A program made the translations under genes and the position numbers. 64,000 bases of DNA from Hyphomicrobiaceae bacterium (GTDB taxonomy: Bacteria; Pseudomonadota; Alphaproteobacteria; Rhizobiales; Hyphomicrobiaceae): contig JALHMB010000001.1 of NCBI GenBank assembly GCA_022844275.1, positions 434,001-498,000 of the forward strand, given 5' to 3'. A model generated the notes under the pieces. That model ran no database searches and was not told where the DNA came from. It saw nothing but the letters and a program-made list of their open reading frames with translations. Below are positions 40,919-64,000 of this stretch, in pieces. How positions within the stretch are numbered: the stretch's first letter is position 1; each line of letters begins with the position of its first letter.

Positions 40919-41005
40919 TGGTGCCTCAGGAGGGACTCGAACCCCCACACCCTCGCGGATAACAGATTTTGAGTCTGTCGCGTCTACCGGTTCCGCCACT
41001 GAGGC
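40919..41005 (-). tRNA. tRNA-Leu (CAA)
   Basis: A complete 87-nt tRNA with encoded CCA. Acceptor GCCTCAG/CTGAGGC, D-arm GCGGAACCGGTAGACGC, anticodon stem ACAGA/TCTGT with loop CTCAAAA giving anticodon CAA, long variable arm, T-arm GGGGGTTCGAGTCCCTC. It lies 139 bp upstream (in its own direction) of the odd tRNA-Leu-like gene. Confidence 0.97.
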
Positions 41006-41067
41006 AACGGCGCGGCACTATAGCCACGGACCTCCGGCCGTCAATGCACCGGCAATCCTTCAGCCGC

Positions 41068-41778
41068 CTAGCCCCGTGCGCCGTCCGGCTTGAGGGCCTG
41101 AGCCGTGCCGATCATGCTGTCGCGCGTGGCGAGGCTGGCCAGCTGTTCCGCGCTCCAGCCGTCCGTGCCCTCGGGACGCATGGGCAGCACGAGATAGCGG
41201 CAGTCGGCCGTCGAATCGACGACACGCACCTCGACGCTATCCGGAAGCTCGGTGCCGAACTCGGAGAGCACGACGCGGGGCTCGCGCACCGTGCGCGTGC
41301 GATAGGCGCGCGACTTGTACCAGAGCGGCGGCAGGCCGAGGATCGTGCGCGGATAGCAGGAGCAGAGCGTGCACACGACCATGTGGTGCACTTTGGGTGT
41401 GTTCTCGAGCACGACGAGCTTCAAGCCGGGCACGCTCATGCCCATTTCCTCGACTCCGGCATTGCCGTCAGCCAGGAGGCGCGCCTTGAAGGCGGGATCG
41501 GTCCATGCACGCGCGACGATGCGGGCGCCGTTCTCCGGCACCTTGCCGTCCCAATCCTCGATCATGTCCTCGACTTCGCGCGCCGTGATGATCCCCTTCT
41601 GGATCAGCAGCTCGCGCATGGCGATCTCGAGGAATTCCCACTCCTCGCTCGGCTCCTTGATGTCGGGCTGGAAGGGGCCGTGATCATGCGGATGGTCATG
41701 ATCATGGTGATGCCCGTGATCATGATCGTGGTCATGCTCGTGATCGTGGTCATGATCGTGGTCATGATCGTGGGTCAT
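41068..41778 (-). CDS. Cobalt-type nitrile hydratase alpha / thiocyanate hydrolase gamma subunit with His-rich leader
   Basis: A 236-residue metal subunit. The metal site is VCTLCSCYPR; the T in CTLC marks the cobalt type, and the two Cys that become sulfenic/sulfinic acid are kept. The Arg after YP, where nitrile hydratases often have Trp, together with RPEGTDGWSAEQL, is closer to thiocyanate hydrolase gamma. The first 34 residues are almost pure His-Asp (HDHDHDHDHEHDHDHDHGH), likely a metal-binding tail and not part of the usual family. It is third in a three-gene set whose first two genes are the split beta halves; its ATG overlaps the stop of the gene before. Confidence 0.9.
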   Translation of the reverse strand: MTHDHDHDHDHDHEHDHDHDHGHHHDHDHPHDHGPFQPDIKEPSEEWEFLEIAMRELLIQKGIITAREVEDMIEDWDGKVPENGARIVARAWTDPAFKARLLADGNAGVEEMGMSVPGLKLVVLENTPKVHHMVVCTLCSCYPRTILGLPPLWYKSRAYRTRTVREPRVVLSEFGTELPDSVEVRVVDSTADCRYLVLPMRPEGTDGWSAEQLASLATRDSMIGTAQALKPDGARG

Positions 41779-42092
41779 GCTGCCCTCCGCGCGCTATCGT
41801 CCGGCTCGAGCCAGTGTTCGTAGATCTCGACGACGAGGCTGTCGCTCGGGCCATACGTGCCGTCGCCAGCCCATAGCTCGTCCATGGTGAAACGGACCCA
41901 ATAGAGCGTCACTTCCGGCGTGTCGTACTTGCCGACGGCCAGATGCTCGGGATTGTGGAACTCGCCAAAGCGCCGCTCGACGACACCGTGCTTGCCGCGC
42001 AGGTACCACGGCGTGCGGATGTGAATGGGTTGCGGCTGCAGTGGATGCTCATCGCGCACGCGGACTGCTTGGCCGACCTCGAATGCAGCCAT
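41775..42092 (-). CDS. Nitrile hydratase beta C-terminal half / thiocyanate hydrolase alpha-like subunit
   Basis: A 105-residue SH3-like barrel protein matching only the C-terminal half of nitrile hydratase beta: FEVGQAVRVRDEHPLQPQPIHIRTPWYLRGKHGVVERRFGEF, then LYWVRFTMDELWAGD and LVVEIYEHWLEP. The split into two genes is as in thiocyanate hydrolase (ScnA) and toyocamycin nitrile hydratase. The ATG at 42092 shares one base with the stop of the gene before; its stop overlaps the metal-subunit start. Confidence 0.88.
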   Translation of the reverse strand: MAAFEVGQAVRVRDEHPLQPQPIHIRTPWYLRGKHGVVERRFGEFHNPEHLAVGKYDTPEVTLYWVRFTMDELWAGDGTYGPSDSLVVEIYEHWLEPDDSARRAA

Positions 42093-42421
42093 CAACACTT
42101 CTCCGACTGCTCGGCGATGCGTGCCTTGACCTCGGCGAGCTTCGCGTTCATCTCGGCTTCGGTTACGACGCCCTTCTCGATGAGCAGGCCCCGCAGCGCA
42201 TAAGCCCATTTCTCGTAGTAGCCTGCGGCGTTGTAGTGCTCGGGCGTCAAGCTCTCGATCGTACGACGCATCTCGTCGACGACCCAGTAGCTGCGCGGAT
42301 TGGAGCGCATGAGCTGCATCAGGGCATCGACGCGGCGTTCCGACAGGGTCGGCACATGCTCATGGTTGTCGACCGGTCCGCCCGGCTCGCCGCCCATATC
42401 GTGCACGCCACGCTCGGCCAT
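42092..42421 (-). CDS. Nitrile hydratase beta N-terminal half / thiocyanate hydrolase beta-like subunit
   Basis: A 109-residue helical protein matching the N-terminal half of nitrile hydratase beta: GVHDMGGEPGGPVDNHEH, LSERRVDALMQLM, RRTIESLTPEHYNAAGYYEKWAYALRGLLIEKGVVTEAEM. The ATG at 42421 follows AGGAGGCGGCG, a strong site; a longer reading to 42484 is less likely. First gene of the three-gene set, in the order beta-N, beta-C, alpha, as in scnBAC. Confidence 0.88.
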   Translation of the reverse strand: MAERGVHDMGGEPGGPVDNHEHVPTLSERRVDALMQLMRSNPRSYWVVDEMRRTIESLTPEHYNAAGYYEKWAYALRGLLIEKGVVTEAEMNAKLAEVKARIAEQSEKC

Positions 42422-44456: not shown

Positions 44457-46541
44457 TTAAGTCAGCACCACCAACCCATCCACCGCAACCGCACCCTGCC
44501 CCTTCGCGCGCACGATGACCGGATTGATCTCGGCCTCGGCGATCTGCGGCGTATCGGACAGCGCGAGCTGCGAGATAGCGACGACAATCGCGGCCAGCGC
44601 TTCGAGATCGCCTTCGGGCAGGCCACGGAAGCCACGCAAAGGTGCGAAGCCCTTTACCTCGGCGATCATGGCGCGGGCCGCGGCGAGATCGACCGGCGCG
44701 GGGCGCACCGCGACATCGCCGTAGACCTCGGCGAGAATGCCGCCGACGCCGACCGCAACGAGAGGGCCTACGCGCGGATCACGGCGGAAGCCGACAATGG
44801 CCTCGCCGAGGCCCTTGATCATTTCCTGCACGACCACGCCGTCGATGCGCGCTCCGGGTGCCTTCCTCGGCACATCGAGAAACAGCGATGCAATGGCCGT
44901 TTTCAGTTCGCCGACGTCCGTAAGCCCGACCCTGACGCCCCCGACCTCGCTCTTGTGGGCGATGTCCGCCGAGAGGATCTTGGCAACGACAGGATATCTA
45001 AGTTTCAGCATGTCCACGCCGGCAGAATCGGTCACTTGCGCAATCGCGGGCACTCTCACGCCCAGCGCCTCGAACAGCTCCAGCGCCCGCTGCTCGTTCA
45101 GAGTTGCAGCGCCCTTCGCGCGATCGAGACATGCGCGCGCCGCCGCCGGCAGCTTGATTTCCTCGCGCGCACGTGGCGGCGTCCAGTCGAGATAGGCGGC
45201 GAGCGCATCGGCGCAGCATTCCGGCGTACGGAAACCTGCGATGCCCGCACTTGCCAACAGCTCCAGAGAGCGCGTCGCATTCGGCAGCAGGAAGGCGACG
45301 ATCGGCTTTTCGGCGTTCGCCCACTTCGCGAGCGGGGCGACGGCCAGCTCTGGAAAATACTCCGCCGATGAGCCGACACCGACGACCACCGCATCGACGC
45401 GCGGATCGGCCATGAAGCTCGACATGACCGTGTCGACGACTTCCGGCTTGGTGCCGGCCATGGTGAGATCGGCGATCGGCGCACCGGGCGCTACATCGAT
45501 CTTGAATGTCGCGAGGTTCGCGCTCAACTCTTCCGCCGCCGGCACAACCTCGATGCCACGCGATCCCAGATGATCCACCACAAGCGCTGCCGCGCCACCT
45601 GTCGTGGTGGTCACGGCGACGCGCTTACCTTTCGGCGGCTTGCGCCCCTTGAGCAGCAGCGGCGCTTCGATGAGGCTCTCGAAATGATCGAGGCGCATGA
45701 TGCCGCAATCGGCGAGGAAGGCATCGAGCGCGCGCGTCTCGCCGACCATGGCACCCGTGTGCGACTGCGCGAGCGCCTGGCCCAGATCCGAGCGGCCGAG
45801 CACATAGGCCATGACGGGCTTGCCGACCGCGTGCGCCTTGCGTGCCATGTCAGCGACGCCAACCGGATCACGCATGGTCTCGAGGAAGAGCAGGATGACA
45901 TCGGTATCGGGATCGTCCACGAGCATGGACGCGATCTCGCCGACGGTTAGGTCGCACTCGTTGCCGATCGAGACGAGCGTCGAGAAACCGATGCCGCGTG
46001 CCTCGCCGCGACTGACCAGCGCGCCGATCATCGAGCCCGACTGCGAGACGAGGCCCGTGCGACCTTTGGGCAGCCGTTCGCGCTCCAGCACGGCGTTTGC
46101 CGAAAGCGTCAGTGGCCAGTGCGTGTTGATCACGCCGAGACTGTTCGGGCCGATGAGGCGCACGCCCCCCTCGCGTGCCGCCGCGATGAGCGCCATTTGC
46201 CGCGCCTTGCCAGCCTCGCCGCCTTCCGCGAAACCGCCCGCGAAGATGGTCGCCGCCGCGACACCCGCCCTGCCGCAGTCGCGGATGGCCTCGACGACCG
46301 AATTCGTGCCGAGCATCACATAGGCGTGGTCCGGCGGCTCGGGGCACTCGGCGAGCGAAGCATAGCAGGGCTCGCCGAATAGCTCCTTGTAACCGGGGTT
46401 GATGGGATAGATCGTGCCGGTGAAGCCGTGCTTGCGCAGATAGCGCTGCGGGCGCGAGTTGTTCTTCTTCACGTCACCGGACGCGCCGACGATGGCAACG
46501 CGCTCCGGGCGCAGTAAGCGATCGCCAAATGACCTGGCCAT
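44457..46541 (-). CDS. ADP-forming acyl-CoA synthetase (acetate-CoA ligase family, fused alpha-beta)
   Basis: A 694-residue NDP-forming acyl-CoA synthetase, which makes an acyl-CoA from an acid, CoA and ATP with release of ADP. Order of domains: CoA-binding (VAIVGASGDVKKNNSRPQRYL), a succinyl-CoA-ligase-like middle (GLVSQSGSMIGALVSRGEA, STLVSIGNECDLTVGEIASML), and an ATP-grasp end (YPVVAKILSADIAHKSEVGGVRVGL, GVVVQEMIKGLGEAIVGFRRD). The ATG at 46541 is used; a longer reading to 46571 adds only a few residues. Confidence 0.92.
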   Translation of the reverse strand: MARSFGDRLLRPERVAIVGASGDVKKNNSRPQRYLRKHGFTGTIYPINPGYKELFGEPCYASLAECPEPPDHAYVMLGTNSVVEAIRDCGRAGVAAATIFAGGFAEGGEAGKARQMALIAAAREGGVRLIGPNSLGVINTHWPLTLSANAVLERERLPKGRTGLVSQSGSMIGALVSRGEARGIGFSTLVSIGNECDLTVGEIASMLVDDPDTDVILLFLETMRDPVGVADMARKAHAVGKPVMAYVLGRSDLGQALAQSHTGAMVGETRALDAFLADCGIMRLDHFESLIEAPLLLKGRKPPKGKRVAVTTTTGGAAALVVDHLGSRGIEVVPAAEELSANLATFKIDVAPGAPIADLTMAGTKPEVVDTVMSSFMADPRVDAVVVGVGSSAEYFPELAVAPLAKWANAEKPIVAFLLPNATRSLELLASAGIAGFRTPECCADALAAYLDWTPPRAREEIKLPAAARACLDRAKGAATLNEQRALELFEALGVRVPAIAQVTDSAGVDMLKLRYPVVAKILSADIAHKSEVGGVRVGLTDVGELKTAIASLFLDVPRKAPGARIDGVVVQEMIKGLGEAIVGFRRDPRVGPLVAVGVGGILAEVYGDVAVRPAPVDLAAARAMIAEVKGFAPLRGFRGLPEGDLEALAAIVVAISQLALSDTPQIAEAEINPVIVRAKGQGAVAVDGLVVLT

Positions 46542-46657
46542 AAGCTCAATACCTCCCTCACCAGCCCGCAATTCATTCTGCCGAGCCGCTTGTTCGGGGT
46601 ATGTCTAGCTGATGCTATCGCATTCCGCCATATGTCCGGACATCGCAGAGGTATGAC

Positions 46658-47284
46658 GTGACTACAAACGTCGAGCGCTACCAGCGGATCGCCCGGTTCT
46701 ACGACCTCCTGGATGCCCCCTTCGAGAGGAAGCGATATCGCGCACTGCGCCCGCTCCTTTTCGAGGGCCTGTCGGGGCGCCTGCTCGACGCGGGGATCGG
46801 CACGGGGCGGAACTGCGAGTTCTATCCCCCTGAGGCCGAGGTCTCGGGCATCGACACCAGCACGGCCATGCTGGAGCTGGCGCGCGAACGCTGTCCAACG
46901 CTGGCGGAAGGGGGCCGGCTCTACCAGATGGACGTCACCGCACTCCAATTTCCGGCGGCATCATTCGACAATGCCGTTTCGAGCTTCCTATTCTGCGTCC
47001 TGCCGGACGATCAGCAGGTGCCGGCGCTGCGCGAACTTGGGCGCGTGGTCAAACCCGGTGGTCTTATCCGCCTGCTCGAATATGTCCGCCCGAGGGGCCG
47101 ATTGCGTCGCGCCATGACGTACATCTGGCAGCCCTGGATTGCCTGGGCTTATGGCGCGAGCTTCGACCGTAACACTGAGCAATACATCCCCACGGCCGGC
47201 CTCGAACTCGTCGAGAGCCAGTTCGTCTTCGACGATCTCATGAAAATGCTGACGGTACGCGTCGTGGCGCACCCTGCCACCTAG
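46658..47284 (+). CDS. Class I SAM-dependent methyltransferase
   Basis: A 208-residue methyltransferase. It begins RYQRIARFYDLLDAPFERKRYRALRPLLF as UbiE/menG-like proteins do, and has the SAM motif LLDAGIGTGRNCEFYPP, then GIDTSTAMLELA and the post-motif FDNAVSSFLFCVLPD. The GTG at 46658 follows AGAGGTATGAC. It is divergent from the acyl-CoA synthetase gene, with 116 bp between, and ends 3 bp before a decayed kinase gene. Substrate unknown; a phospholipid or small molecule is possible. Confidence 0.85.
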   Translation: MTTNVERYQRIARFYDLLDAPFERKRYRALRPLLFEGLSGRLLDAGIGTGRNCEFYPPEAEVSGIDTSTAMLELARERCPTLAEGGRLYQMDVTALQFPAASFDNAVSSFLFCVLPDDQQVPALRELGRVVKPGGLIRLLEYVRPRGRLRRAMTYIWQPWIAWAYGASFDRNTEQYIPTAGLELVESQFVFDDLMKMLTVRVVAHPAT

Positions 47285-49662: not shown

Positions 49663-49811
49663 TCATCGCGTCCTGCTGATGAACGCCGGCCACTCCCCTT
49701 TCTGATGCACTGCGAAGCAGCCGCCTAGCGGGCGAACGCGCCAGCCCCTATTGTGCCGCGCACTCAATAAAAGCTTGTCCGTCTGAAAATTCGAGATCAA
49801 GGGGAGCGCCT

Positions 49812-50687
49812 ATGCGCCTTGCTATTGCTGCACTTGCCGCGATGACCTTTACGACCGGCGCCGTCGCGCAAGGTACCGCGCCGCTTTTTGCGACGACCAA
49901 GGTCGAAGGCACCGACAACGTCTATATCTTTCGCTATCAGGGCCATCAGGCGATGTTCGTCGTGACGCCGGCAGGCGTGATCGCGACCGACCCGATTGCG
50001 TATGGCCGGCCTCAGGCTGCCGTGACGTACGTCGATGAAATCAAGAAGATCACCAAGGCGCCCATCAAATTCCTGATCTACAGCCATCATCACTATGATC
50101 ACGCAGCTGGCGGCAAGCCCTTCAAGGACGCGGGCGCTACCGTGATCGCACACAACCAGGCCAAAGCGCGTCTGACAAAGCTGAAGGGCAAGGACGTCGT
50201 AGTTCCTGATCAGGGTGTCGGCAACAAGCACACGATCAGGCTCGGCGGAACGGTGCTCGAGCTGCATTACACCGGGCGCAACCATTCCGACTCGTCGCTG
50301 GTGATGTTCCTGCCGAAGGAGAAGATCATCTTCGCGGTGGATTTCAACACGCTCGGCGCGGTGCCTTCGCGGCTTGCCGTAAACGACTCCTACCCAATCG
50401 AGTGGGAAGCCTCACTCAAGAAAACGCTCGCCCTCAAATGGGACCGCCAGATTCCGGGGCATCCGGGACCGAATGGACGGCTCGGCACGCGTCAGGACAT
50501 GGAGCAGCAGCTCGCCTTCATGACCGCGCTGTCCGATGAAATAAAGAAAGCGTCCGATGCCGGGAAGTGCTTCTCGCCGGCCGACGCCGAGGTCAAGCTG
50601 CCTCAGTATTCGACCATGACGGGCTACGAGCAGAACCTACCTTGGAACCTCCATCGCTGGTGCGGTTACTGGGGCCGCGGAATCTGA
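49812..50687 (+). CDS. Secreted MBL-fold metallo-hydrolase
   Basis: A 291-residue metallo-beta-lactamase-fold protein with a signal peptide (LAIAALAAMTFTTGAVA). The metal motif is SHHHYDHAAGG (HxHxDH form), a further His is in HYTGRNHSDSSLVMFLP, and Asp in FAVDFNTL; a C-terminal QNLPWNLHRWCGYWGRGI closes it. The layout fits class B-like hydrolases acting in the periplasm, but not a named antibiotic beta-lactamase. Substrate unknown. A strong terminator follows. Confidence 0.9.
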   Translation: MRLAIAALAAMTFTTGAVAQGTAPLFATTKVEGTDNVYIFRYQGHQAMFVVTPAGVIATDPIAYGRPQAAVTYVDEIKKITKAPIKFLIYSHHHYDHAAGGKPFKDAGATVIAHNQAKARLTKLKGKDVVVPDQGVGNKHTIRLGGTVLELHYTGRNHSDSSLVMFLPKEKIIFAVDFNTLGAVPSRLAVNDSYPIEWEASLKKTLALKWDRQIPGHPGPNGRLGTRQDMEQQLAFMTALSDEIKKASDAGKCFSPADAEVKLPQYSTMTGYEQNLPWNLHRWCGYWGRGI

Positions 50688-58514: not shown

Positions 58515-61175
58515 ATGGCTGATTTGACGACCCCGCCGCGGTCGAGCGCCACCACGGTGTTCGAGAACAAGATCCGGTTGAGCCGCTGGGCCCAGCTCTT
58601 CGAACGGCTTTGGCCGCGGACCTGGGCGTTGCTGGCCGTCATTGCCCTTTTCGCGCTGGTTTCGCTCGCGGGCCTCTGGCCGCGCCTCCCCGAGAGCGCC
58701 CACTATGCGCTCCTCGGTCTTTTCGGCCTCGCGACTCTCGCCGCCCTCTTCTGGATGGCGCGGACGCCCTTTCCGAGCCGCGAGGAGGCGCTCCGCCGCC
58801 TTGAGCAGCGCTCGTCGATCGCTCATCGGCCCGCATCATCCTACGAGGACACGCTCTCGGCGCCGGATGTCGGCGGCGCCACCGAAGCCCTCTGGCAAGC
58901 CCATCGTGCTCGCCTCGCCGCCACCCTCTCCAAGCTCCGCGTCGGTACGCCCTCGCCGCGCGCGGATCGCGCCGACCCCTGGGCGTTGCGTGTCGTGTTG
59001 CTGATCGGCGTCGGCGTGCTCGCTGCCGCGGTCGGCGATGGCTTCATGGACCGCCTATCGCAGGCCTTCCGCTTCGGCACGCCCGCGACCACCGTCAGCA
59101 CCGCGCGGCTCGATGCCTGGGTGACACCGCCTGCCTACACAGCCCGCCCGCCGCTCATGCTCGTCGACGGCTCACGCGCAAGCGCGCCGCCCGTGCTCGG
59201 CGAGGCCACCCCCGCTTTCGAAGTGCCGACCAAGAGCGCGCTCACCGTACGCGCCAGCGGCGAAGGCGCTGGCTCGATGACCCTCGAGGTCACCGACGAG
59301 GCCGGCAAGGTTGAGATCCTCACACCGAAGAAGGCACAACTCCCGCCCGGCCTCACGACCACAACGGAAGTCGCAGAGATCCGCGTGGAGCTGACGCGCC
59401 CCGTCACGGCGCGCGCGCGCGGCGTCTCGGGCGAGCCGCAGTGGGCATTTCGCATCATCCCCGATCACCTGCCGAAGATCAGCCTCACCAAGGATCCCGA
59501 GCGGATGCCCCGCGGCTCGCTCAAGCTCTCCTACAAGGTCGAGGATGACTACGGCATCGCGAGCGCGGAAGCGCGCATCACACGCGTGCGCCCGAAGCCC
59601 GGTGATCCCGCAACGAGTTGGGCGCGTCCGAAGAAGCTGGGTGCACGCCCGCCACTCGAAAAGCCACCCGTGTTGACACTGCGCCTGCCGCGCACCAACG
59701 CGAAGCAGGCGGAGGGCACGAGCTATCACGAGCTCTCCGGCCACCCGTGGGCGGGAATGCGCGTTCGCATGGTACTCTCGGCCAAGGATCAGGCCGGCCA
59801 GATCGGCAAGAGCGAACCCGTCGAGTTCATCCTGCCACAGCGCCGCTTCGACAATCCGATCGCGCGCGCCGTCGTCGAGCAACGCCGCTATCTCATCGAG
59901 GATCCACGCAATCGCGAGCAAGTGCTCGTTGGCATCGACGCCATTGCCGCCGAGCCCGAAGGCTTCTTCCCGGACTACAGCGCCTACATCAGTTTGCGCG
60001 GTGCCTACTGGCGGCTTATGCGTGATCGCAGCCGCGATGGCATGAAGAGCGTCGTGGATCAGCTCTGGCACGTCGCCCTGCGTCTCGAGGACGGCAATCT
60101 CTCGGAGGCCGAGCGGCGCCTGCGCCAGGCCCAGGAGGATCTCGCCAAGGCCCTGCAGGAAGGTGCGAGCGACGAGGAAATCCAGCGTCTCATGAACGAG
60201 CTGCGCCAAGCGCTCAATCAGTTCATGGAGCAGCTCGCACGTCAGGCCGAGGGTCAGCCGCCTCAGCCCATGCCGCAGGGCCAGCAGAACCAGATGCTGA
60301 GCCAGCGCGATCTCGAGCGCATGATGCGCGACATCGAGAACATGGCGCGCCAGGGCTCGCGCGATAACGCGCAGCAGATGCTGAGCCAGCTTCGCGACCT
60401 GCTGGAGCGGCTGCAGTCCGGCCGCATGGCGCGTCAGCAGGGCCAACAGAACCAGCAGGCCATGCAGATGATGGACCAGTTCGGGGACATCATCCGCCAG
60501 CAGCAACAGCTTCTCGACGACACGTTCAACGAGCAACGCCAGGCGGGCGAGGACGGCCAGGAAGGTCAACAGGGGCAGCAGGGTCAACAAGGCCAGCAAG
60601 GTCAACAGGGCCAGCGCGGTCAGCGTGGGCAGCAAGGCCAGGGGCAGCAGGGGCAACGCGGCCAGCGTGGGCAGCGCGGCCAACAGCAAGGCCAGCAAGG
60701 GCAGGGCCAGGGTCAAGGCGAGCTGAGCCGCCGCCAGGGCCAGTTGCGCGACCGTCTTGGCCAGCTCGGCCAGGGCATGCAGCAGTTCGGTATGCAGCCG
60801 CCATCTCAGCTCGGTGGGGCTCAGCGCTCCATGGAGGAAGCCGAGGAGGCCCTTCGCAACGGCGATCTCGACGGCGCCGCCCGCGCCGAGCAGCGCGCGC
60901 TCGAACAGCTTCGCCAGGGCGCCCAGCAAATGGCCCAACAGATGCTGCAGCAGATGCCCGGCCAGTTCGGCCGCTCCGCTGACGTGCCGCTCGATCCCAT
61001 GGGACGTCCGCAGCGCACCGAGGGTCCCGATCTAGGTACATCCGTCAAGGTGCCCGACGAGATCGACATCCAGCGCGCCCGCGAGATCCTGGAGGAGCTG
61101 CGTCGCCGCCTCGGCGATCAGCAGCGCCCCCTCCTCGAACTCGACTACATCGAGCGCCTGCTCCGTCGGTTCTAG
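58515..61175 (+). CDS. TIGR02302 family protein with Gln/Gly repeat tract
   Basis: An 886-residue membrane protein of the TIGR02302 family, found after lysA in Rhizobiales. Two or three N-terminal membrane segments (WALLAVIALFALVSLAGLW, ALLGLFGLATLAALFWMA, RVVLLIGVGVLAAAVGDGF) are followed by a large periplasmic part with a Q-rich coiled region (about 540-660) and a long QGQQGQ tract (about residues 683-745). The closing QLLQQMPGQFGRS and ELDYIERLLRRF end is typical. ATG 58515 follows AAGGTG. Role unknown, perhaps in envelope assembly. Confidence 0.9.
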   Translation: MADLTTPPRSSATTVFENKIRLSRWAQLFERLWPRTWALLAVIALFALVSLAGLWPRLPESAHYALLGLFGLATLAALFWMARTPFPSREEALRRLEQRSSIAHRPASSYEDTLSAPDVGGATEALWQAHRARLAATLSKLRVGTPSPRADRADPWALRVVLLIGVGVLAAAVGDGFMDRLSQAFRFGTPATTVSTARLDAWVTPPAYTARPPLMLVDGSRASAPPVLGEATPAFEVPTKSALTVRASGEGAGSMTLEVTDEAGKVEILTPKKAQLPPGLTTTTEVAEIRVELTRPVTARARGVSGEPQWAFRIIPDHLPKISLTKDPERMPRGSLKLSYKVEDDYGIASAEARITRVRPKPGDPATSWARPKKLGARPPLEKPPVLTLRLPRTNAKQAEGTSYHELSGHPWAGMRVRMVLSAKDQAGQIGKSEPVEFILPQRRFDNPIARAVVEQRRYLIEDPRNREQVLVGIDAIAAEPEGFFPDYSAYISLRGAYWRLMRDRSRDGMKSVVDQLWHVALRLEDGNLSEAERRLRQAQEDLAKALQEGASDEEIQRLMNELRQALNQFMEQLARQAEGQPPQPMPQGQQNQMLSQRDLERMMRDIENMARQGSRDNAQQMLSQLRDLLERLQSGRMARQQGQQNQQAMQMMDQFGDIIRQQQQLLDDTFNEQRQAGEDGQEGQQGQQGQQGQQGQQGQRGQRGQQGQGQQGQRGQRGQRGQQQGQQGQGQGQGELSRRQGQLRDRLGQLGQGMQQFGMQPPSQLGGAQRSMEEAEEALRNGDLDGAARAEQRALEQLRQGAQQMAQQMLQQMPGQFGRSADVPLDPMGRPQRTEGPDLGTSVKVPDEIDIQRAREILEELRRRLGDQQRPLLELDYIERLLRRF

Positions 61176-61184
61176 TCAATAAAG

Positions 61185-61305
61185 GCGGGTGGGTTCGGGA
61201 GGGTGTCCCTCCCGATAGAGCGCGAGTCTAGTCTCGCTCGCGCCGCAGGCGCGAACAGGGCTGCCGCCCTGTAACCCGTCCCGGGGGACACCCCCGGAGC
61301 CCCCG
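61185..61305. repeat. GC-rich inverted-repeat element, copy 2, at a convergent gene end
   Basis: Left arm 61185-61214 matches copy 1 at nearly every base (gggagggtgtccctcccg); the right arm (61280-61305) is more diverged. A tttttta tail follows and gives the TAA stop of the minus-strand permease gene. It lies between TIGR02302 (+) and the permease (-). Confidence 0.8.
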
Positions 61306-61309
61306 TTTT

Positions 61310-63076
61310 TTATGGACTTGTTGCCGTGTTCGGCGATGCGTTGGGAGCGGCACGCCGCGGGCTTCCCTGCCCGGATCGGCCCGACGCGATCGCCTGGTGC
61401 AGCGCCAGCACGGGCAGCAGCCCGACCAGCACGATCGCCAGCGAACCCGCGCCTGCGCTCTCGAACAGCTCAAGCGAAGCGAGACTGTAGACGTGCGTTG
61501 CGAGTGTCTCGAAGTTGAAGGGCCGCAGAAGAAGCGCCGCCGGCAGCTCCTTCATGGCATCGACGAACACGAGGAGGCCGGCACTCCCCAGCGCCGGAAG
61601 CAGCAGCGGCAGGTGCACGCGCACCATGGTCGAAAGCGGCGTCGCACCGAGCGTGCGTGCGGCGGCATCGAGGTTCGGCGAGACGCGCTCCATGCCGGCC
61701 TCGATGGCACCGAGCGAAACCGCGAGAAATCGGATCGCAAAAGCCAGCACCAATGCCGATAGCGTTCCCGTCAGCAGCAATCCGAGCGGCAGCCCGAACA
61801 GCGCCCGCGACAGCGCATCGAGCCGGTTGTCGAAGGCGGCGAGTGGAATGAGCAGGCCTAGCGCCAGCACTGTTCCGGGCAGCGCATAGCCGACACTCGC
61901 GAGGCGCACGGCAAGCCGAATGAAGGCCCCACCCACAATGCGGCGCGCATAGGCGAGGATGACCGCCAGCACGACCGTCACGATGGCCGCGAGCACGGCC
62001 AGCAGCACGCTGTTCCAAGCGGCCTTCGAGAGCGCGGCCCAGCCTGCATCATCGGTGAAGTGGATGGCGTTGTAGGCAAGCACGAGGCACGGCAGCACGA
62101 ACCCCGCAATGAACGGAATGAGGCAGACGACGATCGCGCCTACCGCCCACCAGCCCGAAAGCGCAGAGAACGGGATCGAGCGGTATCGCCCTGTCGTGTG
62201 ATGGAACTGTCGCCGCCCGCGCGCGTGACGCTCGATCGCAAACAGGATCAGCACGAGGGCCACCGCCGCGAGCGCGATCTGCGCCGCCCCACCGAGGCTC
62301 GATCGCTGCAGCCAGGTTGCATAGAGCGCCGCCGAAAGCGTCTCGACGCCGAGGTGCTGCACGGCACCCAGATCATTGAGGCATTCCATGAGCACGAGCG
62401 CGACACCGGCCGCGAGCGCTGGTCGTGCCAGCGGCAACGCCACGCCGATGAACGCACCCCAGGGCGTGCGCCCGAGCGTACGCGCGACCTCCAGAACGCA
62501 GATGGACTGCTGTACGAAGCTCGCGCGCGCGGCGAGATAGACATAGGGGTAGAGCACGCTCGAAAGCAGGAAAATAGCGCCACTCGTCGAGCGGACGTCG
62601 GGGAACCAGTAGTCGCGCGGCGTTCGCCAATGGAAGTAAGCTCTCAGCGCGCCCTGCACGGGGCCCGCATAGCCGAGCAGATCGACATAGCAGTAGGCGA
62701 CGATGTACGTCGGCACCGCGAGCGGGATCACCAGAAGCCGATCGAGGATCCCGCGCCCCGGAAAGCGGTACATGGTGATGATCCAGGCCGTCCCCGCGCC
62801 CACGATGAGCGTGGTGACGGCGGCGCCGGCCATGACAGTCAGCGTCGTGCTGAGTGCATTCGGCAGGATCGTCCGAACGAGGTGCGGCCACGTCTCGAAG
62901 CCCGACGAGAGGGCAAGCACAGCGATTGCCGCGACCGGGAGCGCGACCAGTGCGACAATGAGACCGACCGCAATCGTCCAACCCGGCGAAACCTGACGCC
63001 GCCCGCGCCAGGCGCTGAGCTTATGCCCCCACCATCTACCGCGCTCTGTGGATGTCGAAACGTCGCCACTCTGCAT
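61310..63076 (-). CDS. ABC transporter permease, ferric iron/thiamine type (FbpB/ThiP-like)
   Basis: A 588-residue permease with two fused permease halves and about twelve membrane segments. Both halves carry an EAA-like loop (EVARTLGRTPWGAFIGVALPLARPAL and LDAAARTLGATPLSTMVRVHLPLLLPAL). The front has VAYCYVDLLGYAGP and DYWFPDVRSTSGAIFLLSSVLYPYVYLAARASF, as in ferric-iron FbpB permeases. The ATG at 63076 is used in place of a longer reading to 63121. The binding protein and ATPase are not in this window. Confidence 0.88.
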   Translation of the reverse strand: MQSGDVSTSTERGRWWGHKLSAWRGRRQVSPGWTIAVGLIVALVALPVAAIAVLALSSGFETWPHLVRTILPNALSTTLTVMAGAAVTTLIVGAGTAWIITMYRFPGRGILDRLLVIPLAVPTYIVAYCYVDLLGYAGPVQGALRAYFHWRTPRDYWFPDVRSTSGAIFLLSSVLYPYVYLAARASFVQQSICVLEVARTLGRTPWGAFIGVALPLARPALAAGVALVLMECLNDLGAVQHLGVETLSAALYATWLQRSSLGGAAQIALAAVALVLILFAIERHARGRRQFHHTTGRYRSIPFSALSGWWAVGAIVVCLIPFIAGFVLPCLVLAYNAIHFTDDAGWAALSKAAWNSVLLAVLAAIVTVVLAVILAYARRIVGGAFIRLAVRLASVGYALPGTVLALGLLIPLAAFDNRLDALSRALFGLPLGLLLTGTLSALVLAFAIRFLAVSLGAIEAGMERVSPNLDAAARTLGATPLSTMVRVHLPLLLPALGSAGLLVFVDAMKELPAALLLRPFNFETLATHVYSLASLELFESAGAGSLAIVLVGLLPVLALHQAIASGRSGQGSPRRAAPNASPNTATSP

Positions 63077-63367
63077 TGGCTGCCGGGCTCTCCGCCGCCC
63101 ACTTGGGGAGAGGCTCCCCAAAAACGCCGCCCGGGCGGCTGGTCAACCACGTCATTACCCTTCTAGACCTCCGCGGTCGAGTATCTAGGCTGACGCACAA
63201 AGCACGCCCACGATTTTGCGGCAGCGCACAATGGCCCCAAAGCACTCTCAGATGAATTGACCGAACATAGTCAACGCTCTGGCCAGTTTGCCCCCCGTCG
63301 GCTAGTAGTCATCCTAAGCGCTTAAATGACAATCGGCGCCGAGATGGATGATGAGCAGGGAGGTTGC

Positions 63368-64000
63368 ATGGCCGCCACGAGCCAAACAGCGAATGGCCTG
63401 ATCCCGGGCGCCGGCACGCCGGTACAGTTCACCCGCGATGAAGAGCTGACCGCCTATCGCGAGATGTTGCTGATCCGCCGCTTCGAGGAGAAGGCGGGCC
63501 AGCTCTACGGCATGGGTTTCATCGGCGGCTTCTGCCACCTCTATATCGGGCAGGAGGCGGTCGTCGTCGGCATGCAGATGGCGATCAAGCCAGGCGACCA
63601 AGTGATCACCACCTATCGCGATCACGGCCACATGCTCGCAACGGGCATGGACCCGAAGGGTGTCATGGCCGAGCTTACCGGCCGCCAGGGAGGCTATTCC
63701 CGCGGCAAGGGCGGCTCCATGCACATGTTCTCCAAGGAGAAGAATTTCTACGGCGGTCACGGCATCGTCGGTGCCAACGTACCGCTCGGCGCGGGTCTCG
63801 CCTTCGCCAACAAGTACCGCGGCAACGACAACGTCTGCCTCACGTACTTCGGTGACGGCGCCGCCAACCAGGGCCAGGTCTACGAAACCTTCAACATGGC
63901 GAAGCTCTGGCACCTGCCGGTGATCTTCATCATCGAGAACAACCGCTATGCCATGGGCACGGCGATCGAGCGTTCATCGGCGACGACGGATTTCTCACGC
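63368..64000 (+). CDS. pdhA: Pyruvate dehydrogenase E1 component alpha subunit (partial, C-terminus off the right edge)
   Basis: The first 211 residues of the thiamine-diphosphate-binding alpha subunit of pyruvate dehydrogenase E1. The start after GGGAGG reads MAATSQTANG; then AYREMLLIRRFEEKAGQLYGMG, GFCHLYIGQEAVVVGM, TTYRDHGHMLATGMDPKG, GGHGIVGANVPLGAGLAFANK, and the ThDP motif opening YFGDGAANQGQVYETFN with IIENN. The frame is open to the window edge. Expected next gene would be pdhB. Confidence 0.95.
   Translation, partial: MAATSQTANGLIPGAGTPVQFTRDEELTAYREMLLIRRFEEKAGQLYGMGFIGGFCHLYIGQEAVVVGMQMAIKPGDQVITTYRDHGHMLATGMDPKGVMAELTGRQGGYSRGKGGSMHMFSKEKNFYGGHGIVGANVPLGAGLAFANKYRGNDNVCLTYFGDGAANQGQVYETFNMAKLWHLPVIFIIENNRYAMGTAIERSSATTDFSR

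Follow-up and report, generated by a model that had tools for sequence, protein, structure and literature searches.

The window analyzed here, a stretch of 64,000 nucleotides, contains a compact operon of three genes in the order betaN-betaC-alpha (Table 1). The operon is of the split-beta type: its PF21006 and PF02211 domains lie in separate genes, as in the definition of thiocyanate hydrolase (SCNase), and a TGATG overlap at 42090–42094 joins betaN to betaC. Alpha, betaC and betaN each have a single match in the genome at E ≤ 0.001.

Table 1. Features of the betaN-betaC-alpha operon, with positions in the 64,000-nucleotide window
Feature	Position	Strand	Details and basis
Alpha (metal) subunit gene, Co-type nitrile hydratase family	41068–41778	−	236 aa; PF02979, E 2.3e-81
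CTLCSC metal-binding motif, alpha residues 136–141, followed by Y-P-R144	41356–41373	−	alignment
His/Asp tract, alpha residues 1–34	41677–41778	−	17 H, 11 D
ATGA overlap of betaC stop and alpha start	41775–41778	−	sequence
GGAGGG, probable ribosome-binding site of alpha	41783–41788	−	sequence; also precedes the ATG in L003, L004 and L005
betaC gene (C-terminal half of nitrile hydratase beta)	41775–42092	−	105 aa; PF02211, E 6e-21
betaN gene (N-terminal half of nitrile hydratase beta; counterpart of S. canus AnhD)	42092–42421	−	109 aa; PF21006, E 2.8e-20

Judged by its CTLCSC motif and PF02979 domain, alpha is the metal subunit of a Co-type nitrile hydratase family enzyme, in agreement with a first-pass annotation of this DNA that had placed it in a cobalt enzyme. 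The protein passes the cut-offs of PF02979 (272 bits, cut-off 27.2) and TIGR01323 (261.3 bits, cut-off 249.85), and CTLCSC is invariant across 40 aligned sequences (alignment A1). Membership of the thiocyanate hydrolases was rejected, as alpha scores 213.1 bits with the SCNase gamma model TIGR03887, below its cut-off of 291.45; a scan of 10 further three- or four-gene alphas, some of them without a full N-terminus, gave no score above that cut-off either. The residue following CTLCSCYP tracks architecture type: it is Arg in 87/92 three-gene alphas, the type found here, and Trp in 90/103 alpha-beta-activator alphas. The window residue is Arg (codon 41347–41349).

Flanking regions at 44457–46571, 46658–47284 and 49683–50684 were compared with two related loci, L003 and L004. 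A CoA-ligase gene is 90% identical and the gene at 49683–50684 is 80% identical in L003, and the gene at 46613–47281 shows 81% identity in L004. These partly shared flanking genes suggest vertical inheritance of the operon in the close-relative group. In a crude gene-picking comparison of 45 three- or four-gene loci, the most widespread neighbor families reach at most 7 of them, the operon frames and the frames antisense to these being set aside. AT skew is 0.207 at 60001–64000 and lies between −0.06 and 0.09 in the rest of the window.

The N-terminal tract of alpha

The alpha protein begins with MTHDHDHDHDHDHEHDHDHDHGHHHDHDHPHDHG, encoded at 41677–41778 on the minus strand. As the first-pass annotation had noticed, these first 34 residues are nearly all His and Asp, with 17 His, 11 Asp, 1 Glu, 2 Gly, 1 Pro, 1 Thr and Met1. 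The start codon is credible because its ATG overlaps the TGA of betaC, GGAGGG lies upstream, and the starts of the alphas at L003–L006, as far as the inferred start codons of these homologues go, fall at the corresponding place, with GGAGGG ahead of the start in three of the four (L003–L005). The densest 12-residue window of the tract contains 7 His. In the core control, which took two 60-residue stretches per protein from 230 alphas (the window alpha plus 229 homologues), the densest 12-residue windows contain 0–3 His (0 in 135, 1 in 216, 2 in 106 and 3 in 3 of the 460 stretches), and by this comparison the His density of the tract is not due to chance. AlphaFold2, run with a 40-sequence alignment, assigned pLDDT values below 50 to alpha segments 1–4 and 14–39, with block means of 43–48 for residues 1–40, 73 for residues 41–50 and 83–98 beyond. 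The tract is, by this model, predicted to be intrinsically disordered.

Activators and tails across the family

The first-pass annotation had remarked that no P47K or nitrile hydratase activator gene stands next to alpha, and had proposed that the tract may store or deliver cobalt in cis. No activator gene adjoins the operon, the P14K/NhlE type included, and TIGR03889, the model of Co-type activators, has no match in the whole genome, which is given as 98.9% complete; as a positive control, its cut-off was passed in 80 of 385 same-class genomes, and the model matched all three activator-type control genomes. P47K was the wrong expectation, since it belongs to Fe-type enzymes, and the Fe-type activator is one subgroup of the cobW-family proteins (PMC2770081). 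A CobW/P47K-type protein was rejected as the activator: the genome has seven cobW-family places, counted at family level, and none lies inside the window. As to an SCNase-type P15K, the genome shows a single betaN-like gene and no match to TIGR03889, a model of Co-type activators.

Other genomes were searched in the same way. Of the sampled genomes, 32 have only three-gene loci among those listed, which is the sense of ‘three-gene-only’ here, and in none of them does TIGR03889 pass its cut-off; in two three-gene-only genomes, G067 and G160, weak sub-cut-off matches lie close to their own alpha genes. The cut-off was passed in 15/15 genomes that have both locus types. In a further set of 15 genomes with three- or four-gene loci, an activator is found elsewhere in three (those of L009, L039 and L049) and in none of the other 12, among them the genome of L004, Hyphomicrobium sp. 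CS1BSMeth3, the nearest named relative. The proviso that an activator might always occur elsewhere in the same genome therefore describes those three genomes, but neither this one nor the 32 sampled ones.

At three loci (L010, L013 and L037) an extra betaN-like gene stands in front of the operon, giving betaN-betaN-betaC-alpha, and TIGR03889 has no match in the genomes of L010 and L013. It may encode a P15K-like activator that belongs to a different sequence type.

For the survey of tails, a tail was defined as at least 4 His within a 12-residue stretch ahead of the core. Frequencies were taken from a same-class sample of 149 loci, the best-scoring listed places of 385 genomes, because the other 80 loci, which supplied the profiles of betaN, betaC and alpha, had partly been picked by the tract pattern MTHDHDHD. 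Tails are present at 45/49 three-gene loci, 42/77 alpha-beta-activator loci and 0/5 beta-alpha-activator loci. The contrast between three-gene (45/49) and activator-adjacent (42/82) loci gives a Fisher p of 9e-7, a test that left out 18 of the 149 loci (nine alpha-beta and two beta-alpha loci without a visible activator, and seven truncated or odd ones). The earlier statement that normal alpha or gamma subunits lack such a tract does not hold, as tails occur in 2dd4_C, in 3qxe_A and at the 42 activator-adjacent loci above. At the remaining 35/77 alpha-beta-activator loci the tail is missing, so its function is dispensable at those loci.

A tree was built from 254 alpha cores with FastTree only, with long branches flagged and the same-class and pattern-picked sets mixed. 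Architecture changes twice on it and the tail 32 times; because architecture changes only twice, the association rests on one or two independent contrasts. Nine supported, independent pairs unlike in tail could be drawn; in almost every one of 200 pairings, the members of all nine agreed in architecture. Over similar tree lengths, 6 changes of tail presence were counted for 97 three- or four-gene alphas (proteobacterial rows only, with a few actinobacterial rows and one Chloroflexi row left out) and 23 for 109 activator-bearing alphas (p 0.002); in the same-class sample alone the counts are 3 and 19 (p 0.008). When a tail is taken as at least 5 His, the counts become 15 without and 28 with an activator (p 0.07; same-class 8 and 21, p 0.13), and at 6 or more His they are 22 and 18 (p 0.53; same-class 16 and 14, p 0.20). 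Without an activator, tail presence is thus kept better and tail length is not, in a contrast that fades under stricter definitions. Three-gene alphas carry a tail at 32/33 loci of three-gene-only genomes and at 12/15 loci of genomes that also have an activator (p 0.08).

Two activators themselves, at L109 (433–813, minus strand) and L186 (1918–2328, minus strand), carry C-terminal His/Asp tails (HHHDHDHHH and HHHDHDHDHDHG), and at both loci the alpha tail is weak. These tails hint at a role in maturation. With only 2/112 activators so equipped and no such C-terminal tail seen in the relatives of the two, a general transfer of the tail to the activator was rejected.

A lineage of three-gene loci without tails is found in the Streptomycetaceae. 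Among 16 such loci, none of the 15 readable alphas has a tail; the N-terminus of L259 is unreadable owing to an in-frame stop, and L265–L269, whose alphas are partial, odd or missing, did not enter the count. In the one genome of this group that was checked, that of L070, nothing passes the TIGR03889 cut-off. Directly after CTLCSCYP, 15/16 of these loci have Leu, Val or Ile, and L249 has Arg. These tail-less alphas, together with the S. canus enzyme reported to mature via betaN, show that a missing activator does not by itself call for a tail.

These results bear directly on the proposal that cobalt is stored or delivered in cis by the tract, which would so replace the missing activator. The higher frequency and fewer changes of tails at activator-less loci, the 32/33 against 12/15 split, and the two activators with His/Asp tails beside weak alpha tails all argue for it, as does the suggestion that a His-stretch of UreG compensates for a missing UreE (PMC2770081). 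The same data also argue against it: the association comes down to one or two contrasts, the nine tail-differing pairs nearly never differ in architecture, the difference in rates fades at 5 and 6 His, and tailed activators are only 2/112 and absent from relatives. Tail-less Streptomycetaceae alphas and the reported maturation of the S. canus enzyme without a separate activator weigh further against replacement, as does Pseudomonas putida, where a tailed alpha still needs P14K (PMC3511329). We consider replacement of the activator by the tract unlikely. What stands of the proposal is that composition fits a metal role and that tail presence is steadier without an activator; the tie between tail and missing activator, for which a comparison of orthologues had been recommended, appears at 45/49 three-gene loci but is blurred by the tails at 42/77 activator-adjacent ones.

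Constraint on the tract sequence

Tract length, counted to the Gly of HDHG, varies from 23 to 34 residues among the window alpha and those of L003–L005, at 91–93% identity. Free variation in close relatives, which the first-pass annotation had named as evidence against a cobalt role, thus applies to the length of the tract but not to its presence. In each of the six pairwise comparisons of these four sequences, the 11 ungapped H/D codons show 3–6 synonymous and no amino-acid differences, which points to selection at the protein level. Among less close equal-length tails, near 80% core identity, some pairs have more amino-acid than synonymous changes (14 against 2, for example). The pattern fits selection for composition and not for exact sequence or length.

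At the DNA level the tract is a 12-base imperfect tandem repeat of 7.4 copies with 76% matches, and an antisense ORF at 40969–41823 on the plus strand was dismissed as a by-product of this repeat. Such a repeat raises the prospect of a weakly constrained stretch whose length shifts by slippage and which has no important function, a reading in line with the variable length among close relatives and with the equal-length pairs richer in amino-acid than synonymous changes. However, the tail is retained in 90/97 proteobacterial three- or four-gene alphas, and at the start of the tract in the four closest sequences the H/D alternation is preserved, the changes there being synonymous only; we regard an idle repeat as improbable. 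A role of the repeat in mRNA or DNA, as a hairpin over the start codon, has even less to recommend it. The window stretch does fold with a z of −1.62, but the values at four other loci are weaker (−0.26, −0.78, −0.01 and −1.04) and synonymous positions vary among the closest sequences, and a hairpin as the purpose of the repeat was rejected as next to inconceivable.

His/Asp repeats bind many divalent metals. The tail could therefore serve another end, such as buffering of Zn or Ni, solubility or subunit contacts, and its gain and loss beside activators would sit well with this. Such uses do not readily explain why the tail lies on the cobalt-bearing subunit in those 90/97 alphas and is rare on other subunits, where a His-rich stretch of at least 5 His in 12 was seen in three cases, and we rate them as rather doubtful. 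At L168, where alpha has no tail, the betaC-bearing frame has a His-rich insert (SHAHSHDHDHE) inside the C-terminal half of beta.

Proposed role and comparison with known systems

We lean, with some reserve, towards a disordered metal-gathering tail that aids the maturation of alpha, with betaN doing the work of an activator and the tail being no replacement for one. Composition, position and retention suggest that the tail may be an auxiliary, low-affinity arm that raises the local cobalt around apo-alpha during maturation. By analogy with what is reported for AnhD of Streptomyces canus, betaN would perform the task that falls to a separate activator in other systems: it would form a complex with alpha, permit cobalt insertion and cysteine oxidation, and swap the cobalt-loaded subunit into the enzyme. 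The betaN of the window is, on this analogy, probably a built-in maturation chaperone, and the tail would assist activator function without taking its place.

Several points count against a metal-gathering tail. The His17 stretch of Monosiga is dispensable for metal incorporation according to a review (PMC7193024), and the data for P. putida imply no stable extra cobalt on its tail (PMC3511329). Tails are missing at 35/77 alpha-beta-activator loci, and for some less close relatives with tails of the same length, amino-acid differences outnumber synonymous ones. The chaperone role of betaN is itself transferred from S. canus, and the window betaN is 37–41% identical to its four best Streptomycetaceae counterparts. 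For the proteobacterial three-subunit branch, which as a rule is devoid of a separate activator, one could go further and picture the tail as a built-in cobalt donor working with betaN, so that capture, insertion and swapping are all performed by the enzyme's own subunits. We think this stronger version unlikely; if true, the steady retention of the tail (90/97) would reflect a division of labor between tail and betaN.

The tract is real and typical of its family, in which such tails are common whether or not a separate activator gene is present; it makes a good, if unremarkable and not novel, case of a tail that probably gathers metal. The entry of cobalt into nitrile hydratase-type enzymes bears on a basic question, metalation without a dedicated chaperone, and on an enzyme used in industry that in most cases depends on an activator. 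Many test pairs are available in nature within the large branch that has native His/Asp tails and no activator, and the useful result here is a survey in which the tail and the loss of the activator come apart. A literature search on His-rich stretches of nitrile hydratase or thiocyanate hydrolase, which reached only a minority of subscription papers, gave a eukaryotic His stretch and no study of bacterial alpha-subunit N-terminal His/Asp tails, which is weak evidence of absence.

Among the closest known systems is the gamma subunit of thiocyanate hydrolase from Thiobacillus thioparus (PDB 2dd4_C), which shares the core family and whose His/Asp N-terminus, DHDHDHDHDHDHK, aligns to part of the tract. 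Two of the structural genes of thiocyanate hydrolase are halves of beta. There are three structural genes in all, and the enzyme has its own activator, P15K, as the gene order given in PMC7193024 also has it. The window differs in that alpha falls below the SCNase gamma cut-off (213 against 291) and no activator was found. The alpha of the Co-type nitrile hydratase of P. putida (3qxe_A), which we take to be the enzyme of strain NRRL-18668, shares the cobalt motif, and its His-rich N-terminus, GQSHTHDHHHDG, could also be aligned. In the work on that strain, protein sequencing gave an alpha N-terminus of GQSHTHD, P14K is called necessary for functional expression, and the purified enzyme contained about 0.9 Co per alpha-beta (Table 2 of PMC3511329), which argues that its tail holds no stable extra cobalt. 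That tail is shorter than the one in the window, and the P. putida enzyme has separate alpha and beta genes with P14K.

In organization, the window operon resembles AnhDEA of S. canus, which has the same betaN-betaC-alpha order. The published account recognizes no activator gene in the S. canus genome and describes an enzyme that takes up cobalt without an activator, with AnhD, its betaN, as metal and swapping chaperone (PMC7329996). AnhA is given there as 21.33 kDa, a mass that leaves no room for a long tail; the tail-less L070 alpha is 21.1 kDa and the window alpha 26.7 kDa. The two groups also differ after CTLCSCYP, where Streptomycetaceae three-gene alphas mostly have Leu, Val or Ile and the window alpha has Arg. 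The fused beta-alpha nitrile hydratase of Monosiga brevicollis carries the His17 stretch between its beta and alpha domains, and its activator is described as undiscovered (PMC3323583; PMC7193024); that protein is a eukaryotic fusion with poly-His, unlike the His-Asp tract of the window. Finally, His-stretches occur in the metal chaperones UreG and COG0523, and for UreG it was suggested that the stretch compensates for the absence of its partner UreE (PMC2770081). Those proteins are GTPases of metallocentre assembly, whereas the tract described here forms part of an enzyme subunit.
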